A stretch of 64,000 bases of DNA from NCBI RefSeq assembly GCF_006861655.1, contig NZ_SESI01000001.1, forward strand, positions 260,328 through 324,327. The letters run 5' to 3'. Shown piece by piece: positions 1,761 to 42,365 of the stretch. Source of the stretch: Halonotius roseus (GTDB lineage Archaea > Halobacteriota > Halobacteria > Halobacteriales > Haloferacaceae). The notes under the pieces were generated by a model. That model did not search any database and was not told where the DNA came from. It worked only from the letters and a program-made list of their open reading frames with translations. Made by a program: the position numbers and the translations under genes. Position 1 is the first letter of the stretch, and each line of letters begins with the position of its first letter.

Positions 1761-2771
1761 TTAGAGCTGGCCCAGATCGACGTTGAGCGTGTCGATCACG
1801 TCGATAACCGGCTGATAGTCGTCGATGCTGGCCTCCGTTACCGCGGTCAGTGGATTCTCAACCTCGCCATCGGGCTCGCGGAGCGTGCCGTCATCGATAC
1901 CGACGATCGCATCTTCGATATCTGACCGCAGCGGATGCTCCCAGTTGCTGCGCGCGATGATCGGGGAGAAGGGCAGTGATGTTGATGCCTCGACCAGCTG
2001 CAGTTCGGGCGACTCCGTCCCAACCTCGTCGTCCCACCGTCCGGAACCCTCGCGGACGCGATCCGGCCACTGATCCTCCGGGATGTGGTTCAGCAGCACC
2101 GCGATATCGCAGCCACAGGCGACGACATCGTCCCGATTGATCAGCGTCTGCACGGCGTTTCGGTGGCTCCCCGTCCACTCGCCGTTGTAATCGACCGGAT
2201 CGCCGTACGGTGCCTCACCGGTGTCAAGCCCGGCTTGGTTCAGCATGTAGTTGGGGTACAGCGAGCCGCTGGTCGATGGTCGATCCGCAAACGCGATCGT
2301 TTTTCCCTCGATGTCGGCGGTCTCCTCGATGTCGGAATCGGGAAGCGTGGCAAGTGCCGAGAAATACACCGACGCGCCGCCTTCTTCGACGATGCCGACG
2401 ACATCGATCTGATCCGGATTCGCAAGCAGGACGATGTCGCTGCGGGTCATCTCAGCTTGGTTGTTGATCAGGGCTTGGCCGATAGCTGAGGTGTTGTCCG
2501 CAAAGTCAACGTTGAACGGCGCGTCGGGAACGGTTGAGCGAACATGTTCTCTGAACGGTTCCCACATCTCCTCGGTATCTCCCGGCGTTTCGCCCGGCGT
2601 CTCAAGAAAGCTCACCGGCTCGTAGTCGGCTCCCGACGACCCACCATCAGCACCGTCACCGGAACTCCCGTCGGAACTGCCACCGGAACTATCTGAGCTA
2701 CAGCCCGCGAGACCAGCTGTCAGTGCCACACCGGTACTCTGCAGCACGCGTCGACGTGTTTGATCTGCCAT
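1761..2771 (-). CDS. phnD: Phosphonate-type ABC transporter substrate-binding lipoprotein PhnD
   Basis: Extracellular ligand-binding lipoprotein of the importer. It has a twin-arginine signal (RRRVLQ) and lipobox LAGC at about residues 22-25, followed by a Ser/Gly/Asp linker typical of haloarchaeal lipoproteins. The mature part carries the PhnD-like features of binding-protein family 12 (residues around FADRPSTSGSLYP bind the phosphorus oxyanion in homologues). ATG at 2771 is preferred to the adjacent in-frame GTG at 2774. It is first in the phnD-phnC-phnE operon, with a TATA-like element upstream. Confidence 0.9.
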   Translation of the reverse strand: MADQTRRRVLQSTGVALTAGLAGCSSDSSGGSSDGSSGDGADGGSSGADYEPVSFLETPGETPGDTEEMWEPFREHVRSTVPDAPFNVDFADNTSAIGQALINNQAEMTRSDIVLLANPDQIDVVGIVEEGGASVYFSALATLPDSDIEETADIEGKTIAFADRPSTSGSLYPNYMLNQAGLDTGEAPYGDPVDYNGEWTGSHRNAVQTLINRDDVVACGCDIAVLLNHIPEDQWPDRVREGSGRWDDEVGTESPELQLVEASTSLPFSPIIARSNWEHPLRSDIEDAIVGIDDGTLREPDGEVENPLTAVTEASIDDYQPVIDVIDTLNVDLGQL

Positions 2772-2804
2772 CACCTCACTCTGAACGAAATATTTACTTA
2801 TTCA

Positions 2805-2814
2805 CTTATAATAT
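2805..2814 (-). promoter_or_regulatory. TATA-like element of the phnDCE operon
   Basis: On the minus strand this reads as an A/T-rich TATTATAAG box, 34-43 bases before the phnD ATG, in an AT-rich stretch that contrasts with the surrounding coding DNA. This spacing predicts a transcription start about 5-10 bases before the start codon. No clear Pho-type operator was recognised. Confidence 0.5.
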
Positions 2815-2962
2815 CCGTACGAAAAGATATGTGCAGATATTGGCGCATGATACACCACAATAGCAGTATATAGAGCCGTTACCGAAAGTGCTACTGGATG
2901 GCGAGTTCGGTGGTAGTTCCTCATACTCAGCCGTGCGTACAAGACTCGACAAACAGCGACTC

Positions 2963-3081
2963 ACTCGACACGCAACAGATAGCAAGCCCTACTCAACACG
3001 CAACAGATAGCAAGCCCTACTCAACACGCAACAGATAGCAAGCCCTACTCAACACGCAACAGACAGCACGCCTACTCAGCG
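2963..3081. repeat. 28-bp direct tandem repeat, about 4.3 copies, spanning a stop codon
   Basis: Unit ACTCAACACGCAACAGATAG followed by CAAGCCCT. Copies start at 2963, 2991, 3019 and 3047; the first has one substitution, the fourth has two changes and one deletion, and a partial fifth copy begins at 3074. The array runs into the stop codon (3072-3074) of the TRAM-domain gene. It is contiguous, with no spacers, so it is not CRISPR. The rest of the phnD-TRAM gap (about 2815-2962) shows nothing recognisable. Confidence 0.9.
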
Positions 3082-3509
3082 TGATCAAGCCGGTCGATCA
3101 CGGTGCCGAATGCGACGTTTGGTTGTACCGTCTCGATGCGGATCTCGACGGTTTCGCCCTCGTCAGTTTCGGGGACGATCACCACGTAGCCGCGTTCGAC
3201 ACGGGTAATCCCGTCGCCTTGGTCGCCGACATCCTCGATCTCAACGACGCGGGTTTCGCCCTCGCTGACCGGCGGCTCCGGCTGTGACGGCGTGGGATCA
3301 TCACGCTGGGGGGTCGCCTCGGAAGTCTCGGTTGGCGTGCGTGTGTCGGTCGTGCCGTCGGATTTCGCCAACACGGCAACGCGCAGGGTCTCTCCCGGGG
3401 TGATCGAACCCTGTTCGACCTCCGAAGCCGGCACACTGAAGCTGTAGCCCTCCTCGGTTTCGGTTAGTTCTGCGGTGTACAGACAGGCGAGTTGCTCGGG
3501 GATCTCCAT
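3072..3509 (-). CDS. TRAM-domain protein
   Basis: 145 residues. The N-terminal ~45 residues are a conserved haloarchaeal module (MEIPEQLACLYTAEL), then a Thr/Pro/Glu-rich linker, and then a C-terminal TRAM beta-barrel (about 85-145, with EDVGDQGDGITRVERGYVVIV). TRAM domains bind RNA, and stand-alone archaeal TRAM proteins are proposed RNA chaperones. A paralogue of the same architecture lies at 55961-56368. The 3' end is embedded in a 28-bp tandem repeat. The target RNA is unknown. Confidence 0.8.
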   Translation of the reverse strand: MEIPEQLACLYTAELTETEEGYSFSVPASEVEQGSITPGETLRVAVLAKSDGTTDTRTPTETSEATPQRDDPTPSQPEPPVSEGETRVVEIEDVGDQGDGITRVERGYVVIVPETDEGETVEIRIETVQPNVAFGTVIDRLDHAE

Positions 3510-6877: not shown

Positions 6878-7531
6878 CGAATCATTGTCGTTGGCTACGG
6901 CCGGGTCGGAGCCCGCACGGCCCGGGTGTTAGCCGAGGAAGGCTACGATGTCGTCGTTGTCGACAACGACCGCGAGAAGGTCGATCGCGCTCGCGAGACA
7001 GGACTGACCGTGGTTCACGGCGACGGGGCCGACGAGGCGGTGTTACAGGAGGCTGGCATCGCCGACGCCGACGCCATCGGCGGGATCACCGGCGACGTGG
7101 CGGTCAACCACAAGATCTGCCTGCTCGGCCAGGAGTACGGCTGTCGAACCGTCCTGCGGATCAGCGAGGATGTGAGCAGCGAGAAATACGAGGAGTACGC
7201 CGCGGCCGCCGACGATGTCATCTACCCCCAGCGGCTCGGCGCGGCCGGCGCGAAAACCGCGTTGCTCGGCGGCAGTCTCAACGCGATCGGCGATCTGACC
7301 GAAGCCCTCCAGCTGACGACGGTCACCGTCGACGACGACGCCCCGATCGTCGGCCAGCGGGTCTCGGAGATCGAGCTGCCGGAGACCGCACGGCTCTACG
7401 CCCACGGCCACAAACGCGATCCGATGACGATCCCGCTGCCGTCGACGACCATCGAGGCCGGCGACCGGCTGGCACTCGTCGTCGAGCGCGACGCCGTCGA
7501 CGAGGTTACCGCGATCCTCCTCGGCGAGTAA
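6875..7531 (+). CDS. TrkA-type K+ channel/transporter regulatory subunit
   Basis: 219 residues. The N-terminal Rossmann (RCK/KTN) domain has the dinucleotide fingerprint GYGRVGART at ~7-15 and an acidic VVDND at ~30. The C-terminal ~75 residues form a TrkA-C (RCK_C) ligand-binding domain. Such proteins sit under Trk/Ktr or channel pores in the cytoplasm and gate them in response to NAD(H) or nucleotides. No pore gene is adjacent. ATG 6875 starts directly at the Rossmann strand and follows a TATA box; an ORF extension to 6812 is unlikely. Confidence 0.88.
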   Translation: MRIIVVGYGRVGARTARVLAEEGYDVVVVDNDREKVDRARETGLTVVHGDGADEAVLQEAGIADADAIGGITGDVAVNHKICLLGQEYGCRTVLRISEDVSSEKYEEYAAAADDVIYPQRLGAAGAKTALLGGSLNAIGDLTEALQLTTVTVDDDAPIVGQRVSEIELPETARLYAHGHKRDPMTIPLPSTTIEAGDRLALVVERDAVDEVTAILLGE

Positions 7532-7573
7532 CCGACTGCGAACGCTCTTGTGGATCGCGCCGCAACGCCGGGT

Positions 7574-17548: not shown

Positions 17549-17624
17549 TAACGCTCGCCGATGGGGATCCTCCCGTCCAACTGGGATCACCGTGTTCAAG
17601 ACGCCGCCGCCCCGAGCCGTCGGT

Positions 17625-18383
17625 ATGACCGTAATCGCCGTGATGGCGTTGCCGCCGCGTGAGGGTCTTGTGTTGCCGACGCTCGCAGAAACGAGCCCGC
17701 TGTCGAGTGCGGCGGCCGCCGAGCTGTATGCGGCCTCGCTTGCCGATACGATCCGCGCCATCGACCGCTCGGGCGCGGAGCCGTTGATCAACTATCCGGA
17801 ATCCGATCAGCTGCCGGACGCCCACCAAACCGACACCGAGCCGGTCGCCGAGCTCCGCGCGGTCGTTGCCGACGCGCTTGAGGACTCCGCTGACGTACGA
17901 TTCGAACCCCAGGTCGGCTCGACGTTTTCGGCGCGAGCGGGCAACACCGTCACGCATCTCCTCCGTGAGGAAGACGCAGCATCGGTGGCCGTCATCCGGG
18001 GGACGGCACCGCTGTTGTCGCGGACGATGATCGACGAGGCGGCGATGAAGCTCCGCACCAACGATGTGGTTCTCGGCCCGACGACCGAGGGGCGGGTCTA
18101 CTACGCCGGCTTTACCGAGCCGATCGACTTCGCCGAGGTCTTCGAGGGGGTCGAACTCCAACGCCTCGCCGACCGGGCGGCCGATGCCGATCTGTCGACC
18201 GCGTTTCTCCGCTCCTCGCCGGTCATCGAAACCGGCGCGGATCTCCGCACGCTGCTCCCGGAGCTGCGCGCCCGGATCGCCGCCGAACGGATCGTCCCCG
18301 AGCGAACCGCGGCGTTCGTCCACGACCACGGGCTCGCTGTCGTCGACACCGATGACGGGCTCGAACTCGTCGCCGATCACTGA
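17625..18383 (+). CDS. DUF2064-like (nucleotidyl/glycosyltransferase-fold) protein
   Basis: 252 residues from ATG 17625. MTVIAVMALPPREGLVLPTL starts a Rossmann-like GT-A fold; VAVIRGTAPLLSRTMIDEAAMKL and NDVVLGPTTEGRVYYAGFTEP match the layout of DUF2064/TIGR04282 proteins (D-L-P in relatives is RGTAP here). Function unknown; family members are annotated as putative glycosyltransferases. The start at 17592 would add 11 poorly supported residues. Confidence 0.7.
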   Translation: MTVIAVMALPPREGLVLPTLAETSPLSSAAAAELYAASLADTIRAIDRSGAEPLINYPESDQLPDAHQTDTEPVAELRAVVADALEDSADVRFEPQVGSTFSARAGNTVTHLLREEDAASVAVIRGTAPLLSRTMIDEAAMKLRTNDVVLGPTTEGRVYYAGFTEPIDFAEVFEGVELQRLADRAADADLSTAFLRSSPVIETGADLRTLLPELRARIAAERIVPERTAAFVHDHGLAVVDTDDGLELVADH

Positions 18384-18407
18384 TCGCGGGTCGGTCGGAA
18401 GCAAGGA

Positions 18408-18665
18408 TTAGCGATGCTTGTCGATCCATTCGCAGAACGACACAAAATCCTGCGCGCCAGCGTCGTCGGCGATATCATGGAGTGTCCCGATGCTGATCGA
18501 ATCGTGGGCAGGGACAGTCACAACACGGGTCTCTGCCGCTTCGTGGCTGTCTGGTGGCTCCCACCGCAGAATCAGGTGATCACCATTCGTACGGACGTGC
18601 CGAAAGCTACCGACGTTGACCAGCACCTTGTACACATCCTTACCCGAAAAATCCCGCGTCACCAT
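18408..18665 (-). CDS. hicA: HicA family toxin (mRNA interferase)
   Basis: 85-residue HicA-like double-stranded-RNA-binding fold: VTRDFSGKDVYKVLVNVGSF, then RTNGDHLILRW with the family His (D-H in place of G-S-H), VTVPAHDSISIGTLHDIADDAG and a C-terminal FVSFCEWIDKH. HicA toxins cleave mRNA and are neutralised by HicB. It lies 2 bases after the hicB-like gene, so toxin is last in the operon, the reverse of the common hicAB order. Confidence 0.85.
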   Translation of the reverse strand: MVTRDFSGKDVYKVLVNVGSFRHVRTNGDHLILRWEPPDSHEAAETRVVTVPAHDSISIGTLHDIADDAGAQDFVSFCEWIDKHR

Positions 18666-18667
18666 CG

Positions 18668-19348
18668 CTACTGCAGGACATCGGGGAGGTCATCGTCTTG
18701 TGAGCGAGCGACTTCGGGGTCGACACCGAGATCGCGGATTTCCTCGTCGGTTGGCGGCTCCCCGCCATCATCCTCCACCGCCGCAACGACGGCATCGAGA
18801 TTGTCGAGTGCATCTGATCGGGTTTCGCCTTGTGCTGTCACCTCGACACTGAGGTCACGAGCCGTCCACTGTCCATCCGGATTTTTTATTAGACGAACTT
18901 CTTCCGTGGACAGATCTGCATCATCGAGATTGACTGAGAACGACTCTGTTAACAAGTCAGAACTAAGTCCAACAGCGGAACCCTCCTTCAAATCTTGATT
19001 AGTGATTTCTCCACAGATTACTTTCTCTATTTTATCTAATCTTTCTTCTATAGAACCAAGCTTCTCTTGGATTTTATTTGGAAAATTCCAATTTCTTTCT
19101 CCTTGATCGTTCGATAATTCTGGTTGTTGAATTCCGCTAGCGGTAATCATACTGCCTTGGTCGATATCTACAACCAAGCGGCGGCCAGCTTCCTTATCAA
19201 TAAGCTCCGATACACTGGCTTCTGCCATTACTGTCTCGTCATCATTAGACAGCTTCACCCACTCCATATCAGTTAAATTGCTAATTTTATTTTGAGAACT
19301 CTCTGGAGGTTGGAAAACATCGTCAACTTTCAATTGCTTATTTTTCAT
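18668..19348 (-). CDS. hicB: HicB-like antitoxin fused to an unknown N-terminal domain
   Basis: 226 residues. Residues ~149-226 are HicB-like: VRLIKNPDGQWTARDLSVEV, QGETRSDALDNLDAVVAAVE, and an acidic tail with RDLGVDPE that is typical of haloarchaeal HicB. Residues 1-148 are not HicB: a Gln/Asn/Ser-rich region, an alpha/beta stretch, and a coiled-coil-like helix at ~90-112. DNA for the HicB part is GC-rich; DNA for the N-terminal part is strikingly AT-rich, changing at about 18890. This suggests a recombination fusion. It starts 3 bases after the 248-residue gene. Confidence 0.72.
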   Translation of the reverse strand: MKNKQLKVDDVFQPPESSQNKISNLTDMEWVKLSNDDETVMAEASVSELIDKEAGRRLVVDIDQGSMITASGIQQPELSNDQGERNWNFPNKIQEKLGSIEERLDKIEKVICGEITNQDLKEGSAVGLSSDLLTESFSVNLDDADLSTEEVRLIKNPDGQWTARDLSVEVTAQGETRSDALDNLDAVVAAVEDDGGEPPTDEEIRDLGVDPEVARSQDDDLPDVLQ

Positions 19349-19351
19349 GAT

Positions 19352-20098
19352 TTATTCCTCGTTGATGCTTTGTTCTAATCTGTCGTATATTTCTTCTTCA
19401 CTCAATTCAGCTATCTCTTCTTTTGACAGATCCGTATTAGACAGTAAAGCTTCTATTAGTAAATCGCTTCGCTTGTTCTCTGAATGGTGATAATCTACCA
19501 CCTCTTCAAAAGAATCTTCTAAGCGCTCAATTTCTTCATCTGTAAGCGCGTTGTACCCTGATGCATCTTTTAATTGTTCCAGAAGGTGCTCAACTAATCC
19601 TACCAGACCAGTTGAAGTCGATACAAAAGTGAATTTGTCTTCAAGAGTTTTTACATTATGTCTGAAGTTAATAGACTCTAATTCTGAATCTGTGATTTCT
19701 ATGCTAGTATTGATATCTGTCCACCCCTCAGAGCCAACATATTCTTTTGTGCGACTCTGTTGTATTTCAGCCTCAAATTTTATATTGCATTTTTTTAACC
19801 ACTGATTCAAATCATCATTTATTGTTTTAGGAATATCGTAATGATGGTAGTAGCTAATAGAATGAAGAATTGCACTTGAAACTGTGTTTGCCGATTCATA
19901 TGATTCCGAATCTTCGATTAGTACTCTAGACAGAGCAGCTCGGAGCGTGTCAGCACTGGCAATCTCATCAACTCGGTGTAGATTTTCTTCCAGAGCAATG
20001 TATAGTAAATCTGTATTTTCTAAAATAATGCTCTGATGATCCGCGACAGCCTCAAATGGAGTATCATACTCCGAGACAATTTCCTCATCAAAACTCAT
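19352..20098 (-). CDS. Unknown AT-rich alpha-helical protein, first gene of HicA/HicB-like operon
   Basis: 248 residues, ATG 20098, predicted almost fully helical, acidic, no membrane segment and no recognised domain. Segments: SADTLRAALSRVLIED, ILHSISYYHHYDIPKTINDD, GLVGLVEHLLEQLKDAS and a C-terminal LSKEEIAELSEEEIYDRL helix pair. The DNA is far more AT-rich than the genome around it, pointing to recent transfer. Only 3 bases before the HicB-like gene, so it is co-transcribed; TATTAAC at about 20128 could be the promoter core. Confidence 0.7.
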   Translation of the reverse strand: MSFDEEIVSEYDTPFEAVADHQSIILENTDLLYIALEENLHRVDEIASADTLRAALSRVLIEDSESYESANTVSSAILHSISYYHHYDIPKTINDDLNQWLKKCNIKFEAEIQQSRTKEYVGSEGWTDINTSIEITDSELESINFRHNVKTLEDKFTFVSTSTGLVGLVEHLLEQLKDASGYNALTDEEIERLEDSFEEVVDYHHSENKRSDLLIEALLSNTDLSKEEIAELSEEEIYDRLEQSINEE

Positions 20099-20157
20099 CG
20101 TAGATGAATATTTGATTCGGTATGGTTAATATCCTTTTCGCCCCCTACTAGAACTAT

Positions 20158-20832
20158 TCAAGCCACAGCCTCATCGACCGGCTCAACACGGATCGAGCGC
20201 GCAACAGATTCGGGCAGACTCTGTTCGTCGCCGTCGGGGGTGACAACAGTCACCATCCCAAACGGCGCGATATCGACGAGTTCGAGCTCGGTTCCGGGGG
20301 TGATGCCGGCGTTTTCGAGATAGGTGAGCTCGTCCTCGTCGCGGTCGCTAACGCGGCTTACGACGACGTGGTCACCGGGCTCGAACTCGGTGAGGCGGTC
20401 GGTGTCGTCACCCTCGATCGGGTCGAGATCGACGCCCGGGATCGGGTCGCCGTGGGGATCGACCGAGGGGTTATCGAGGGCCTCGGCGACGCGGCGTTCG
20501 AACTCCTCAGAGATGTGGTGTTCTAAGGCGTCGGCCTCCTCGTGTACCTCGTGCCAGTCGTAGTCGAGATGTTCGGTCAGATAGGTCTCAAGCAGGCGGT
20601 GATGGCGGATAACTTCGAGGGCAACCGTCTCGCCTTCCTCGGTTAGCTCGACGCCTTTGTACTTCTCGTGGTCGATAAGGTCGTGATCGGCCAGCGAACT
20701 CACCATGCTGGTGACCGTCGGCGGCGTCTTCTCAAGATACTCCGCGATCGCCGAGGTCGACACCGGCGGGCCACGCTCGGTCTGAAGGACGTAGATCGCC
20801 TTCAGGTAATCCTCCATGGTGTCGCTGAACAT
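20158..20832 (-). CDS. DtxR/MntR-family metal-dependent transcriptional regulator
   Basis: 224 residues. N-terminal winged HTH (MEDYLKAIYVLQ, STSAIAEYLEKTPPTVTSMV), then the dimerisation and metal-binding region (HHRLLETYLTEHLDYDWHEVH, EADALEHHIS) with the expected His, Glu and Asp ligands. It ends with an SH3-like FeoA domain (~140-215). In haloarchaea such proteins (SirR, TroR, Idr) control Fe/Mn genes. The sequence does not say which metal is sensed. A DtxR-like half-site lies upstream of the ZIP gene at 62.06 kb. Confidence 0.9.
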   Translation of the reverse strand: MFSDTMEDYLKAIYVLQTERGPPVSTSAIAEYLEKTPPTVTSMVSSLADHDLIDHEKYKGVELTEEGETVALEVIRHHRLLETYLTEHLDYDWHEVHEEADALEHHISEEFERRVAEALDNPSVDPHGDPIPGVDLDPIEGDDTDRLTEFEPGDHVVVSRVSDRDEDELTYLENAGITPGTELELVDIAPFGMVTVVTPDGDEQSLPESVARSIRVEPVDEAVA

Positions 20833-27880: not shown

Positions 27881-29833
27881 CTAACCAGTGAGCGATACCC
27901 TATTTTCAACAGCGTAGGAGGTTCGATTGAAAGCTGTGAGTTGTGTCTCAGAGAACACCACGACCTGATCATTATACAGCCGTGTCCGTTTAGCTGACTG
28001 ACCAGCAGGAACAATTTCTTCTTGGGTCAGTGTTCTCTCACCGTAATTGAGAATGTACATACTGTCTCCGGCGGGAATGTAGGCGTTCTGGTGAACTGCG
28101 TCGTTCATGAAGGCATGATGAGAGTCTGAGACGGCAGTGGAATACGTATTCGCTAACACCAGAGAGTCAGCTACCTGCGGTGTCGATGCATCCTGAACGT
28201 CAAACAGCACCACCTTCCCGTTACCATCCTGACTCTCACCAACACCCAGCAGCTGATCGTCCCCGATCGGATGGAGATATTCCGAAAAGCCGGGGAGTCT
28301 CAGCGTGCCGACCTCTTCAGGCGTGTTCGAGTCGCTCAGATCGATTACGTGCAGCGGATCGACTTGGCGGTAGGTAATTACATAACCTCGATCGTCGATG
28401 AACCGAACCGCGTAGACGCGCTGGCCGTCCGCCATTCCCTGCACTGACCCTTGGATCTCTAACTCATCGTTGAGCACATAGAGATCGTTTTCGGACTGTT
28501 CACGATCAGTTTCCATCACTGTCGTCGCAAGCCGCAATTCACCGTCGGTTTCATCAAACGAAAATTGATTCAACGGCACTCCTGGCACTGAACCCATTGC
28601 AGACTGCGATAACTCGCCGTCGCTGGTAGATATCTTCACGATCTGTGATCGGAAGAGATCTCGTTTGTTCGCGGCAAGATACGAGTCAACATCCGCTGAA
28701 ATATTCTGCTGGGCTTTCTGGGGGTTCTCCACCCGATCGATGATATTCTCAAACTCAACACGCTTGGCTTGGGGAGACAAATCATATTCTGAGAGCTGCT
28801 CCAGTTCGGCTGCAGTAGCCGAGTCAGACGCAAACTCATCACTGTCAAGCACTACACTGATAACGTCATCAATATCGAACGAGGAGGTTTCATACGAGAC
28901 GTACAGCGATTCAGCAGACATATAGACGGCTGTTTGTGCGTCTGAGCCGAGGAACGTCAGTTCGTCTTCTACAGTCCCATCGGTCAAATCAACAGCAAAG
29001 GCCGTGTATACTGTCTCGCTATTTGTTGACTCAGATATCGATGGGCGATAAATATCGGTACACTCGACGGCATCGCGTGTCTCAATGGGTTGGACTGGGC
29101 ACCTGGCTGTTCGTTCGCGTACGACAAAATATGCGATATCGCCTATTCGACGAGTGGTCACAACCGAGGTAGATTCATTCAGCGGAAGTTCCCACAACTG
29201 CGTGTTCTCGTTGTCAGTAGTGTCGTATCCCGTCACAAGACTTTCATTGTAGACAACCAGTCGGGTGTCAGTTCGCAGTAGTTGCCCTGTTCGGCTCTCT
29301 GTGTTGGTAACGTTCAGCTGGCCCCTGTTCGGATTTTGGATGGTGTGGAGACCGCCAGCAATTGATTTCCACTCACGTGATGTGGCATTAGGATTTTCTC
29401 TGAGTTGGGGCTCTATTCGAATAGAGGTCGGTGCTTGACTGTAGTAGGTGTATTCGTCAGTCACCTTCACGAGATCAGGTTCACCAACACCTGATTCTTG
29501 GATATTGGTTTGCCGTGTTTCAAACGCAGTTCCTGTACGGCTCCCTCCAGTCGTATCCTGAGCAGGTTGTTGTGCTCCACCTGTTGCGTCAGCAAGTGCC
29601 GCATCTGAGGTAACACTGATGCTGGGTGTGCTGCTGAATCCGGTTGGGAGTCCACGCCTCGAATCAGCCCGAGCCAGGTAGGTCTCAAAGCCGTCCTTCG
29701 AATCGAAGGTCTCGAACTCACCGGTAAATTCGGATGTGGTCTGTGCCTCACTACTTCCGTCGAGGACGACTGGTACTGAGAATCCAATACCAACAATGAC
29801 TAGCGCAATCAGCATCCCTGTCTTTGTTTTCAT
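27881..29833 (-). CDS. Secreted beta-propeller domain protein
   Basis: 650 residues from ATG 29833 (MKTKTGMLIALVIVGIGFSV), a signal anchor. The rest is extracytoplasmic, Asp/Glu/Thr-rich, with repeated strand units such as VHAFMNDAVHQNAYIPAGDS and VTYRQVDPLHVIDLSDSNTP that match the archaeal/bacterial beta-propeller family (Pfam Beta_propel). Function unknown, perhaps adhesion or protein binding at the envelope. Codon use is more AT-rich than its neighbours. Starts further upstream (to 30121) run through a possible relic and are rejected. Confidence 0.82.
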   Translation of the reverse strand: MKTKTGMLIALVIVGIGFSVPVVLDGSSEAQTTSEFTGEFETFDSKDGFETYLARADSRRGLPTGFSSTPSISVTSDAALADATGGAQQPAQDTTGGSRTGTAFETRQTNIQESGVGEPDLVKVTDEYTYYSQAPTSIRIEPQLRENPNATSREWKSIAGGLHTIQNPNRGQLNVTNTESRTGQLLRTDTRLVVYNESLVTGYDTTDNENTQLWELPLNESTSVVTTRRIGDIAYFVVRERTARCPVQPIETRDAVECTDIYRPSISESTNSETVYTAFAVDLTDGTVEDELTFLGSDAQTAVYMSAESLYVSYETSSFDIDDVISVVLDSDEFASDSATAAELEQLSEYDLSPQAKRVEFENIIDRVENPQKAQQNISADVDSYLAANKRDLFRSQIVKISTSDGELSQSAMGSVPGVPLNQFSFDETDGELRLATTVMETDREQSENDLYVLNDELEIQGSVQGMADGQRVYAVRFIDDRGYVITYRQVDPLHVIDLSDSNTPEEVGTLRLPGFSEYLHPIGDDQLLGVGESQDGNGKVVLFDVQDASTPQVADSLVLANTYSTAVSDSHHAFMNDAVHQNAYIPAGDSMYILNYGERTLTQEEIVPAGQSAKRTRLYNDQVVVFSETQLTAFNRTSYAVENRVSLTG

Positions 29834-29874
29834 ATAACAGGTCATATAGCACACCAATATATCATTTTTGTTGG

Positions 29875-30060
29875 ATGAGCTGACTCGGCGGCGAGTGGTT
29901 CGAGAAACGAAGTCTCTCGTCATCATGGAAATCGGAGATTTTTGCACGGCTCGAGGCGTTCGCGTGAACTCCCATTCTCTGCCTACAAGACGGCAGGAGG
30001 GTTGTACTCCCCGCCCACGTTCAACGTCCGATAATTCAACCGCACGTCTACAACTCCTTG
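29875..30060. other. GC-rich intergenic relic with stem-loop, possible transposon 3' end
   Basis: The gap between the beta-propeller protein and the GT4 gene carries an open, non-conserved reading frame on the minus strand and a small stem-loop (TGCC/GGCA arms around 29980-29997). The composition differs from the AT-rich gene beside it. It recalls 3' ends of IS200/IS605-type TnpB elements in haloarchaea, but I could not match a transposase domain. Weak call. Confidence 0.25.
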
Positions 30061-30084
30061 AGGCCGGAGACTCCCATTGCAACC

Positions 30085-30126
30085 GCTGAATCAAAACAGC
30101 TGAATCAGAATAGTGAATCAAAACAG
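30085..30126. repeat. 14-bp tandem repeat x3 over a stop codon
   Basis: GCTGAATCAAAACA (30085-30098), GCTGAATCAGAATA (30099-30112) and GTGAATCAAAACAG (30113-30126). The last unit contains the stop codon of the GT4 gene (30118-30120) and codons for its last residues. Confidence 0.85.
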
Positions 30127-40671: not shown

Positions 40672-41736
40672 ATGGTCGAAGAAGACTCATCTGTAGGGTT
40701 GCAATATCTGGATGAATTGGATTCATGGATTCTTGACGAGGATGATCATGTGAGATACACCGCCTTAGATATCTGTATCAAACTATCTGGAGACCACCCA
40801 CTTCAGATACAAAATCTGCTTTCTGTCATTATTTCACGATTAGATGACGTCGATTTGCGTGTCCGTGGAGCAGCCCTGACAGCGACGTACAACCTGGCTG
40901 TATGGTATCCACACCAGCTGGGGAGTACAACAGAGTTGCTCTATAAAATCAGCACTGATGGTGAAGTTGAAAAAGAGCAAGCAGTGGCGGTAGGTATCAT
41001 CTCACGGATCGCTCTCTTACGTCCTGATTTAGTTACACCCAGAGTGAAGATCCAACAATGTCTTGATCAGTTCACCAGCAGGGATAATGCGGAAAGTCTG
41101 TTGGATGATTGTGCGATTGATATTGAAACTGTAGAAGCGGCGATCAAAGTATTAGATGGTGGAGATATGGCAAGCAGACCACTTGAGTCGGATTTAGCGC
41201 CCACCCCGCGCAAAACGGGATTAAGCAAACCTGCGATGGTTGGATTTACGTGGTTTTGGCGAGTGATCCTGTTTCTTTCCATTGGAATCATATTTTGGGT
41301 GAATCTCTTCCGTTGGGCCTGGAAATATGACCATCTGACCCCGGAAGGCAGGATCGCGGTGATGATGGAGGAAATATCGAAAGTAAAGTTTTTCAAAAAT
41401 ACGAAGCAGCGAACACTCTACCTTCGATCATCGATGTGGCCTACAGCTGTTCAGGTGCTCCGATTCCTTCCCGGTCGAACACCCACATCAGAGAGTTTCT
41501 CACAGGAAACACGGCCCTTACCCGACGATTGGGGACGAAGAGCCAGTATAGTGCGCGAGCGGGATGGCTACCGGTGCCGCAACTGTGGAGTTGGGGGTGG
41601 ACCAAACGGGGATGCCGAACTCCACGTCGATCATGCAAAGCCACGCAGTGTTGGTGGGCATGATCAGGGCCTGAACCTGCGCACACTGTGCCGTAGCTGC
41701 CATGAGGCCAGACATGCACGGGTGTTCGCACAATGA
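40672..41736 (+). CDS. HEAT-repeat, transmembrane, HNH endonuclease protein
   Basis: 354 residues. Residues ~1-165 are helical HEAT-like repeats (RYTALDICIKLSG, RVRGAALTATYNLAVWYP, AVAVGIISRIALLRP). Residues ~192-215 are a transmembrane helix. Residues ~290-354 are an HNH nuclease: C302-x2-C305, VDH at 319-321, C340-x2-C343 and H344/H348 around the motif. The combination (sensor scaffold, membrane anchor, DNase) suggests a membrane-bound nuclease effector. AT-rich DNA with a TTTTTTATTAAAAT stretch upstream. The stop overlaps the ATG of the J-domain gene. Confidence 0.78.
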   Translation: MVEEDSSVGLQYLDELDSWILDEDDHVRYTALDICIKLSGDHPLQIQNLLSVIISRLDDVDLRVRGAALTATYNLAVWYPHQLGSTTELLYKISTDGEVEKEQAVAVGIISRIALLRPDLVTPRVKIQQCLDQFTSRDNAESLLDDCAIDIETVEAAIKVLDGGDMASRPLESDLAPTPRKTGLSKPAMVGFTWFWRVILFLSIGIIFWVNLFRWAWKYDHLTPEGRIAVMMEEISKVKFFKNTKQRTLYLRSSMWPTAVQVLRFLPGRTPTSESFSQETRPLPDDWGRRASIVRERDGYRCRNCGVGGGPNGDAELHVDHAKPRSVGGHDQGLNLRTLCRSCHEARHARVFAQ

Positions 41737-42365
41737 GTACGTACTATGATATTTTGGAAGTATCTGAGGATGCTTCTCAAAAAGAAATAAAAAAAGCATA
41801 CCGTGAAAAAGTAAAAGAGACACACCCAGATCAGTCCGATCATCCCAATGCGGCGCAGTTGTTCATGCAGGTACAGGAAGCAAACGACATTCTCAGTGAT
41901 CCCCAGAAACGGGAAAAATATGATAATGGCACCTTAGGTGGGAGATCCCACGATACTGGAACACAGCACACCCAGAGTACTCAGACACGTCAAACTCAGT
42001 CTACTGCTGAGGCTGACCGTGATGATGTTGGGTGGCGTAGTTTTACCCGAGGATCTGACCCAGCGGAACAGATCTGGGATCAAGAGGTAAATACCGGTGA
42101 GAAACCCCCTACTCCAGATTCTATATCACAGTCATGGCTGAAATCAAAAGCAGCCCACATTGGGATGGCGACCACCGGTGGGGCTATCGGATACTTGTTT
42201 GCGGATAACTTCATCAGTGCAGTGTTCTCGATAACAACTGACCCCTGGGGAACAATGAATATGGGGTGGGTCGGATTTGTCGTATTGATTCTAGCGTTGG
42301 TAATTTCCATTGGAATCTTCGAGGTTATCGTAGGCACTCACCGTCGTATCTACAAACTCAGTTGA
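41733..42365 (+). CDS. J-domain protein with two transmembrane helices
   Basis: 210 residues. N-terminal J domain (~4-65, HPD at 31-33; YYDILEVSEDASQKEIKKAY), a Gln/Thr-rich linker (~70-100), then two hydrophobic helices (~143-165, ~178-200). It starts within the stop of the HEAT-HNH gene (ATGA overlap), so the two are coupled. It likely recruits an Hsp70 to a membrane complex; a link with phage response is inference only. Confidence 0.78.
   Translation: MSTYYDILEVSEDASQKEIKKAYREKVKETHPDQSDHPNAAQLFMQVQEANDILSDPQKREKYDNGTLGGRSHDTGTQHTQSTQTRQTQSTAEADRDDVGWRSFTRGSDPAEQIWDQEVNTGEKPPTPDSISQSWLKSKAAHIGMATTGGAIGYLFADNFISAVFSITTDPWGTMNMGWVGFVVLILALVISIGIFEVIVGTHRRIYKLS

Follow-up and report, generated by a model that had tools for sequence, protein, structure and literature searches.

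An AT-rich module fused in frame to a resident-type hicBA toxin–antitoxin pair in the haloarchaeon Halonotius roseus

The operon described here is a real fusion, in which an AT-rich module was joined to a hicBA toxin–antitoxin pair of the type resident in the genus. The operon was located in the window, which is the whole stretch of 64,000 nucleotides that was analysed (G000:C1:260328-324327) in a genome of 2.56 Mb on four contigs (labelled G000). Three open ORFs were arranged on the minus strand from 20098 down to 18408 in the order A protein, chimera and HicA, and the intergenic gap between the chimera and HicA was 2 bp. A first-pass annotation had described a HicB-like region fused in frame to ~148 AT-rich residues, a 248-residue protein 3 bases upstream and HicA as the last gene. 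This description was borne out by DUF7387 at the C-terminus of the chimera with residues 1-148 unmatched, by a measured gap of 3 bp between the A protein and the chimera, and by the Pfam HicA_toxin domain in 18408-18665. Sequence comparison shows that the operon is a fusion, that its hicBA is of resident type by origin, that A belongs to a family and that the partners of A vary and include those of a second A–antitoxin–toxin operon. The features are as follows.

18384-20157, strand not applicable: inserted segment, whole, on an inversion breakpoint (inverted region ~60 kb)
17592-18383, plus strand: left flank gene
18408-18665, minus strand: HicA toxin, intact, 85 aa, PF07927, G-D-H segment present
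18668-19348, minus strand: chimera (N-part + HicB), ORF of 226 aa
18668-18903, minus strand: HicB antitoxin domain of the chimera (DUF7387, PF24113), in-frame fusion
18872-18903, strand not applicable: fusion junction zone, GC step and start of hicB homology
18904-19348, minus strand: foreign, AT-rich N-part of the chimera, ~148 aa, no family match
19352-20098, minus strand: A protein, ORF of 248 aa, GC 0.37, no significant family match
20158-20832, minus strand: DtxR, right flank gene

The DUF7387 match covered chimera residues 147-225 with an E value of 1.6e-20 (73.7 bits against a Pfam cut-off of 27.9) and spanned profile positions 10-85 of 85. The HicB core was whole, and the normal start of ~14 residues was missing. 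No match to chimera residues 1-149 was obtained in Pfam, NCBIfam or PADLOC, and the chimera matched just a HicB-domain family in PHROGs. The downstream toxin was recognised as HicA_toxin (E value 4.1e-8, 33.7 bits, curated cut-off 27). DUF7387 is the ordinary short HicB of haloarchaea. It was found above the curated cut-off in 290 of the 392 genomes of the order, and hicA stood next to the DUF7387 gene in nearly all of 34 loci inspected, four of which were further DUF7387–HicA pairs of the same genome as the window. The chimera was the exception within this family, with homology that started at residue ~150. The first-pass annotation had named a uniform long-HicB family of even composition as the case that would speak against a fusion; the window gene did not behave in this way, and such a family was rejected because the normal form is short, both in the sister species G295 and in the DUF7387 survey. 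A PDB search with the HicB profile returned nothing convincing. Elsewhere in the genome, a further hicBA pair directly adjoined a VapBC-like pair (G000:C4:221000-226000, 2029-3456).

The base composition within the chimera gene was evaluated along its length. The best GC change point was 18881, within about 10 bp of the sharp change near 18890 that had first been reported, and the GC content was 0.62 below this point and 0.39 above it. The likelihood gain for the step was 16.1, versus at most 9.4 in 300 shuffles, and the N-part had a GC content of 0.29-0.51 in 15-codon blocks. The homology to normal hicB extended slightly past the change point, to 18901-18903, and an exact 20-nt match to G295 hicB, GGACAGTGGACGGCTCGTGA, started at 18871. 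Repeats at the junction were just short, chance-like pairs. No in-frame ATG or GTG codon of the chimera was present between residue 67 and the HicB core, where the only in-frame starts were TTG (120, 132) or CTG. Moreover, the region upstream of hicB in G295 had no counterpart at the window locus. The loss of this upstream region and the choice of start codons suggest that the expression of HicA now probably depends on the transcription of the module. AT-richer stretches were also seen at other positions of the window. At 40672-42365 (GC ~0.50), two overlapping genes were present, of which the first product was helical-repeat-like and HNH-like at its C-terminal end and the second was DnaJ-domain-like and had a membrane segment, and at 27881-30121 (GC ~0.51), a long ORF resembled a secreted beta-propeller protein.

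The history of hicBA was explored in the sister species. In G295, a 91-aa HicB and an 85-aa HicA formed a stand-alone pair between FAH and hisC, which had 80% DNA identity to window 18408-18901, and the identity stopped at 18901. This short stand-alone pair indicates that hicB once existed without the N-part. The differences from G295 in the HicB core and HicA were chiefly silent, and the dN/dS values were 0.07 for the HicB core and 0.10 for HicA, with 0.07 for DtxR for scale; the low values of HicB and HicA mostly reflect the time before the fusion. The gap between FAH and hisC contained a hicB remnant interrupted by a stop in G168, a hicA remnant and a VapBC-like pair in G293, and nothing in the genome of the window, where about 50 bp separated both ORFs. 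The loci in the relatives are given below.

G293:C60 1398-2288: FAH–hisC locus
G168:C5 2690-3100: FAH–hisC locus
G295:C21 1837-2372: FAH–hisC locus

The states of this gap in G295, G168, G293 and G000 all differed, which marks it as a site of toxin–antitoxin turnover in the genus. The intact pair in G295, the remnants in G168 and G293 and the mainly silent differences indicate that hicBA is of a type long resident in the genus and that it lies in a new place in the genome of the window. The first alternative of the first-pass annotation, in which hicB was captured by a foreign module of two proteins, has good support from the short stand-alone pair of the sister species, and also from the occurrence of A with a variable second gene as a free-standing AT-rich module elsewhere in haloarchaea.

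The genes on both sides of the segment were not adjacent in the sister species, and the synteny with relatives stopped at 20158 on the right and at about 18390 on the left. DtxR was conserved in all relatives, with a transporter and/or a G1P dehydrogenase (G1PDH) downstream in the same genus, and a Zn-ribbon gene came next to the left flank gene in G168 and G293. In the genome of the window, the transporter/G1PDH and the Zn-ribbon gene were near neighbours at G000:C1:213-218k; the G1PDH and the left flank gene were flipped, and the orientation of the Zn-ribbon gene and DtxR was unchanged. The new neighbours and the flipped orientations indicate an inversion of ~60 kb, with the AT-rich module and hicBA at one end of it. 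A RelE-like toxin gene was observed near the other end (G000:C1:210000-220000, 7216-7545).

The A protein belongs to a rare haloarchaeal family that is new here and is represented in none of Pfam, NCBIfam, PADLOC and PHROGs. No significant match was obtained in these four collections, all Pfam matches were sub-threshold, and no defence family of PADLOC was matched. No description of the A family or of DUF7387 was found in a literature search that most subscription papers fell outside. The protein had helical ends around a core of the form G-x-x-x-W-x-x-x-x-T ... H, in which G122, W126, T131 and H147 were invariant in the family. A single-protein query of 293 genomes gave one distant match, and profiles built stepwise led to ten loci in a profile search confined to the order. 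In leave-one-out HMM searches, the A protein of the window scored 45.1 bits (E value 4.4e-13), and the best of 999 shuffles reached 10.7 bits; the E values of the other nine members were 3e-27 to 5e-61, with shuffles at 14 bits or less (999 each). The family was present in 7 of 392 genomes in a search of the order, in 5 of 171 in a search of the taxonomic family of the window and in 3 of 146 in a search of another family. All genes of the A-family operons were AT-rich (0.37-0.49) in richer flanks, except the HicA of the window. Some loci were close to integrase, ParA-like or transposase-like genes, which fits mobile surroundings, and are listed below.

L075 9161-10213: A-family locus with mobile-type neighbours
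L118 5895-6698: A-family locus with mobile-type neighbours
L119 3538-4272: A-family locus with mobile-type neighbours

No relative of the A protein was found in plasmids and viral contigs, no relative of the chimera in phages, and no relative of hicB or hicA in viral contigs; an origin of the module from a phage or plasmid was thus left as unproven. A pattern search of genome contigs with the A protein returned the G508 record alone. A weak profile match (E value 0.002) linked the C-terminal region of the A family to the chlamydial CT584 structures in the PDB. Structure models of the A protein and the chimera were of low confidence (pLDDT 40) and were unused for fold searches.

A was always the first gene of its operon, and the partner was directly behind it, usually overlapping. 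Three kinds of partner were distinguished. In G204, G305 and G368, a protein of 330-368 aa was followed by a small third protein. These partners had conserved RRGxxxQDLAAA, DFAF and FExK motifs and a conserved D...ExK, together with weak matches to PF14130 (E value 0.006) and to HamA over the N-terminus (3e-6 to 2e-4), and they may be read as PD-(D/E)xK (Cap4-like) nucleases. In G088, G451, G494 and G373, the partner began with a low-complexity stretch, was helical or coiled-coil in the middle and had two TM helices, and a second two-TM gene was present in three of these loci. The A locus of G312 ended at the contig end. The third kind was observed in G508, where the partner, 137 aa long, had a charged N-part and a core resembling HicB, and a VapC toxin came after it (PIN, Pfam E value 1.8e-11; VapC, 4.6e-14). 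The genes of this operon overlapped by 1 bp, and all were AT-rich with an even composition. The likeness of the G508 antitoxin to HicB was weak (Pfam E value 0.016; hhalign probability 36%), and, used as a query, it retrieved DUF7387-type HicBs from four genomes (E values 6e-5 to 9e-4). On this evidence, G508 appears to hold an independent operon of A, an N-extended HicB-like antitoxin and VapC.

The window shared the features of these modules. The core motif of A was present, the next gene was AT-rich and on the same strand at a gap of 3 bp, and an antitoxin (the HicB domain) had a downstream toxin (HicA), as in G508. The linkage of A, antitoxin and toxin was therefore seen at two loci, the window and G508, with different toxins and with an antitoxin in G508 that was only weakly HicB-like; no second genome with A and HicA was found among the A-family loci. 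The alternative proposal of the first-pass annotation, a three-component toxin–antitoxin with an added sensor, gained a genomic parallel in this way, and such a reading of the window is plausible, with one independent parallel. The N-part of the chimera had a low-complexity start and a short predicted helix at residues 91-111, taken from a low-confidence model only, and no TM segment (highest 19-residue hydropathy 0.64). The N-parts of the partners across the A loci had no provable similarity to each other. The N-part resembles the leading portion of a partner protein, and the HicB domain is in the position that the effector takes in other partners. The best reading is that the A module is mobile and that the C-terminal half of the partner is an exchangeable effector.

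The operon was compared with known systems. HicA occurs in 14 genomic contexts listed by Gerdes (PMC10865869). The window resembled class 2 hicBA, in which HicB is small and without a DNA-binding domain (PMC10865869), in the hicB–hicA order with the HicB core directly upstream of hicA, in the tight linkage, in the HicA toxin domain, and in an intact HicB core and HicA that were alignable throughout. However, the HicB of the window had a 148-aa foreign N-part, no start of its own and the A gene upstream, and the 226 aa of the chimera exceeded the 60-90 aa of class 2 HicB. In the logic proposed below, the operon would be similar to CapRel-type and toxin–antitoxin–chaperone systems, in which a sensing part is linked to an antitoxin and a translation-blocking toxin is freed; CapRel shows that such a coupling of antitoxin and sensor is possible (PMC9712102). 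In contrast, the putative sensor and the antitoxin of the window would be two proteins joined via the N-part, and no chaperone or capsid-sensing domain was found in the window operon. The nuclease partners of A in relatives were similar to Cap4 (CBASS) and Hachiman HamA in their weak matches and D...ExK, but these matches were below the curated cut-offs, occurred only in the partners of relatives and not in the window, and no cyclic-nucleotide synthase, SAVED domain or HamB helicase was found beside them.

We tentatively favour, at a probability just short of even, the explanation that an AT-rich module of A and its partner was joined in frame to resident-type hicBA, and that A is a sensor or adaptor with swappable effectors that gates HicA. 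The main rival is a passive genomic scar, in which a membrane-type A module that had lost its TM end was joined to hicBA by chance during the rearrangement; the chimera would then be an ordinary HicB antitoxin with a passenger N-terminus, and A would have no partner to act on. The position of the segment on the inversion breakpoint, the occurrence of the fusion in one genome only, the decay or loss of hicBA at its old locus in the genus and the layout of the N-part (low-complexity start, helix, no TM), which resembles a shortened membrane-type partner, are consistent with a scar. It is nevertheless a doubtful explanation, if a serious one, because no stop interrupts the ~400 codons of the A protein and the N-part, the join is in frame exactly where the HicB core starts, and an independent A–antitoxin–toxin operon exists in G508.

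A toxin swap would be a variant of how the favoured arrangement arose rather than a different outcome. The AT-rich donor would have had a HicB-like antitoxin and a toxin of its own, and homologous recombination within hicB would have replaced its 3' part and toxin by the resident hicBA. A donor type is exemplified by G508, and the composition shifts within the stretch homologous to HicB, about 20 bp into the homology and beside the 20-nt identity; the first HicB codons of the chimera (about 152-159) are also AT-shifted. However, the hicB remnant of G168 shares part of these AT codons (AAAAATCCGGA), so the shift may be native and was not taken to prove that the donor hicB was AT-rich, and no AT-rich A and HicB donor with HicA was found, which leaves the swap unlikely. 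Far less probable is that the chimera is one of the known long HicB types, class 7 or class 8, and that the gene upstream is unrelated and adjacent by coincidence. The C-terminal HicB fold without a recognised DNA-binding domain is shared with these classes, and the 226 aa of the chimera fall within the class 7 range of 216-233 aa, but the HicB of class 7 contains two DUF1902 domains (PMC10865869). The N-part is AT-rich and unique and has no DUF1902 or tRNA-synthetase-like domain, DUF7387 alone was found at the C-terminus of the chimera in Pfam, A and a partner were seen together at ten loci, and the gene of the sister species is short.

For the favoured explanation, we infer the binding of A to its partner, the sensing, the release of HicA and the antiviral role. 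By analogy with its other arrangements, the A protein would be a constant sensor or adaptor that binds to the partner at the N-part, and HicA would be kept inactive by the HicB domain of the chimera in the resting state. The A protein would detect a trigger, most likely virus infection, and would then alter or sequester the chimera or expose it to degradation. The freed HicA would cleave mRNA and growth would stop, as in abortive infection. HicA toxins have been argued to act in anti-phage defence in many contexts (PMC10865869). In a broader form, which is possible although the balance leans somewhat against it, A would represent an undescribed modular immune system of haloarchaea with a constant sensor or adaptor that is linked via the partner's N-part to interchangeable killers, namely a PD-(D/E)xK nuclease, a two-TM membrane protein, VapC and HicA, and the window would show a natural effector swap by in-frame capture of a resident hicBA. 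The parts of the fusion are separable by composition and a short form exists in the sister species, so that, on this reading, the way in which a sensor gains control of a toxin becomes testable. If this explanation is true, the same socket would accept toxin–antitoxin pairs as well as nucleases and membrane effectors, and toxin–antitoxin systems would be tied directly to modular immune systems in archaea.
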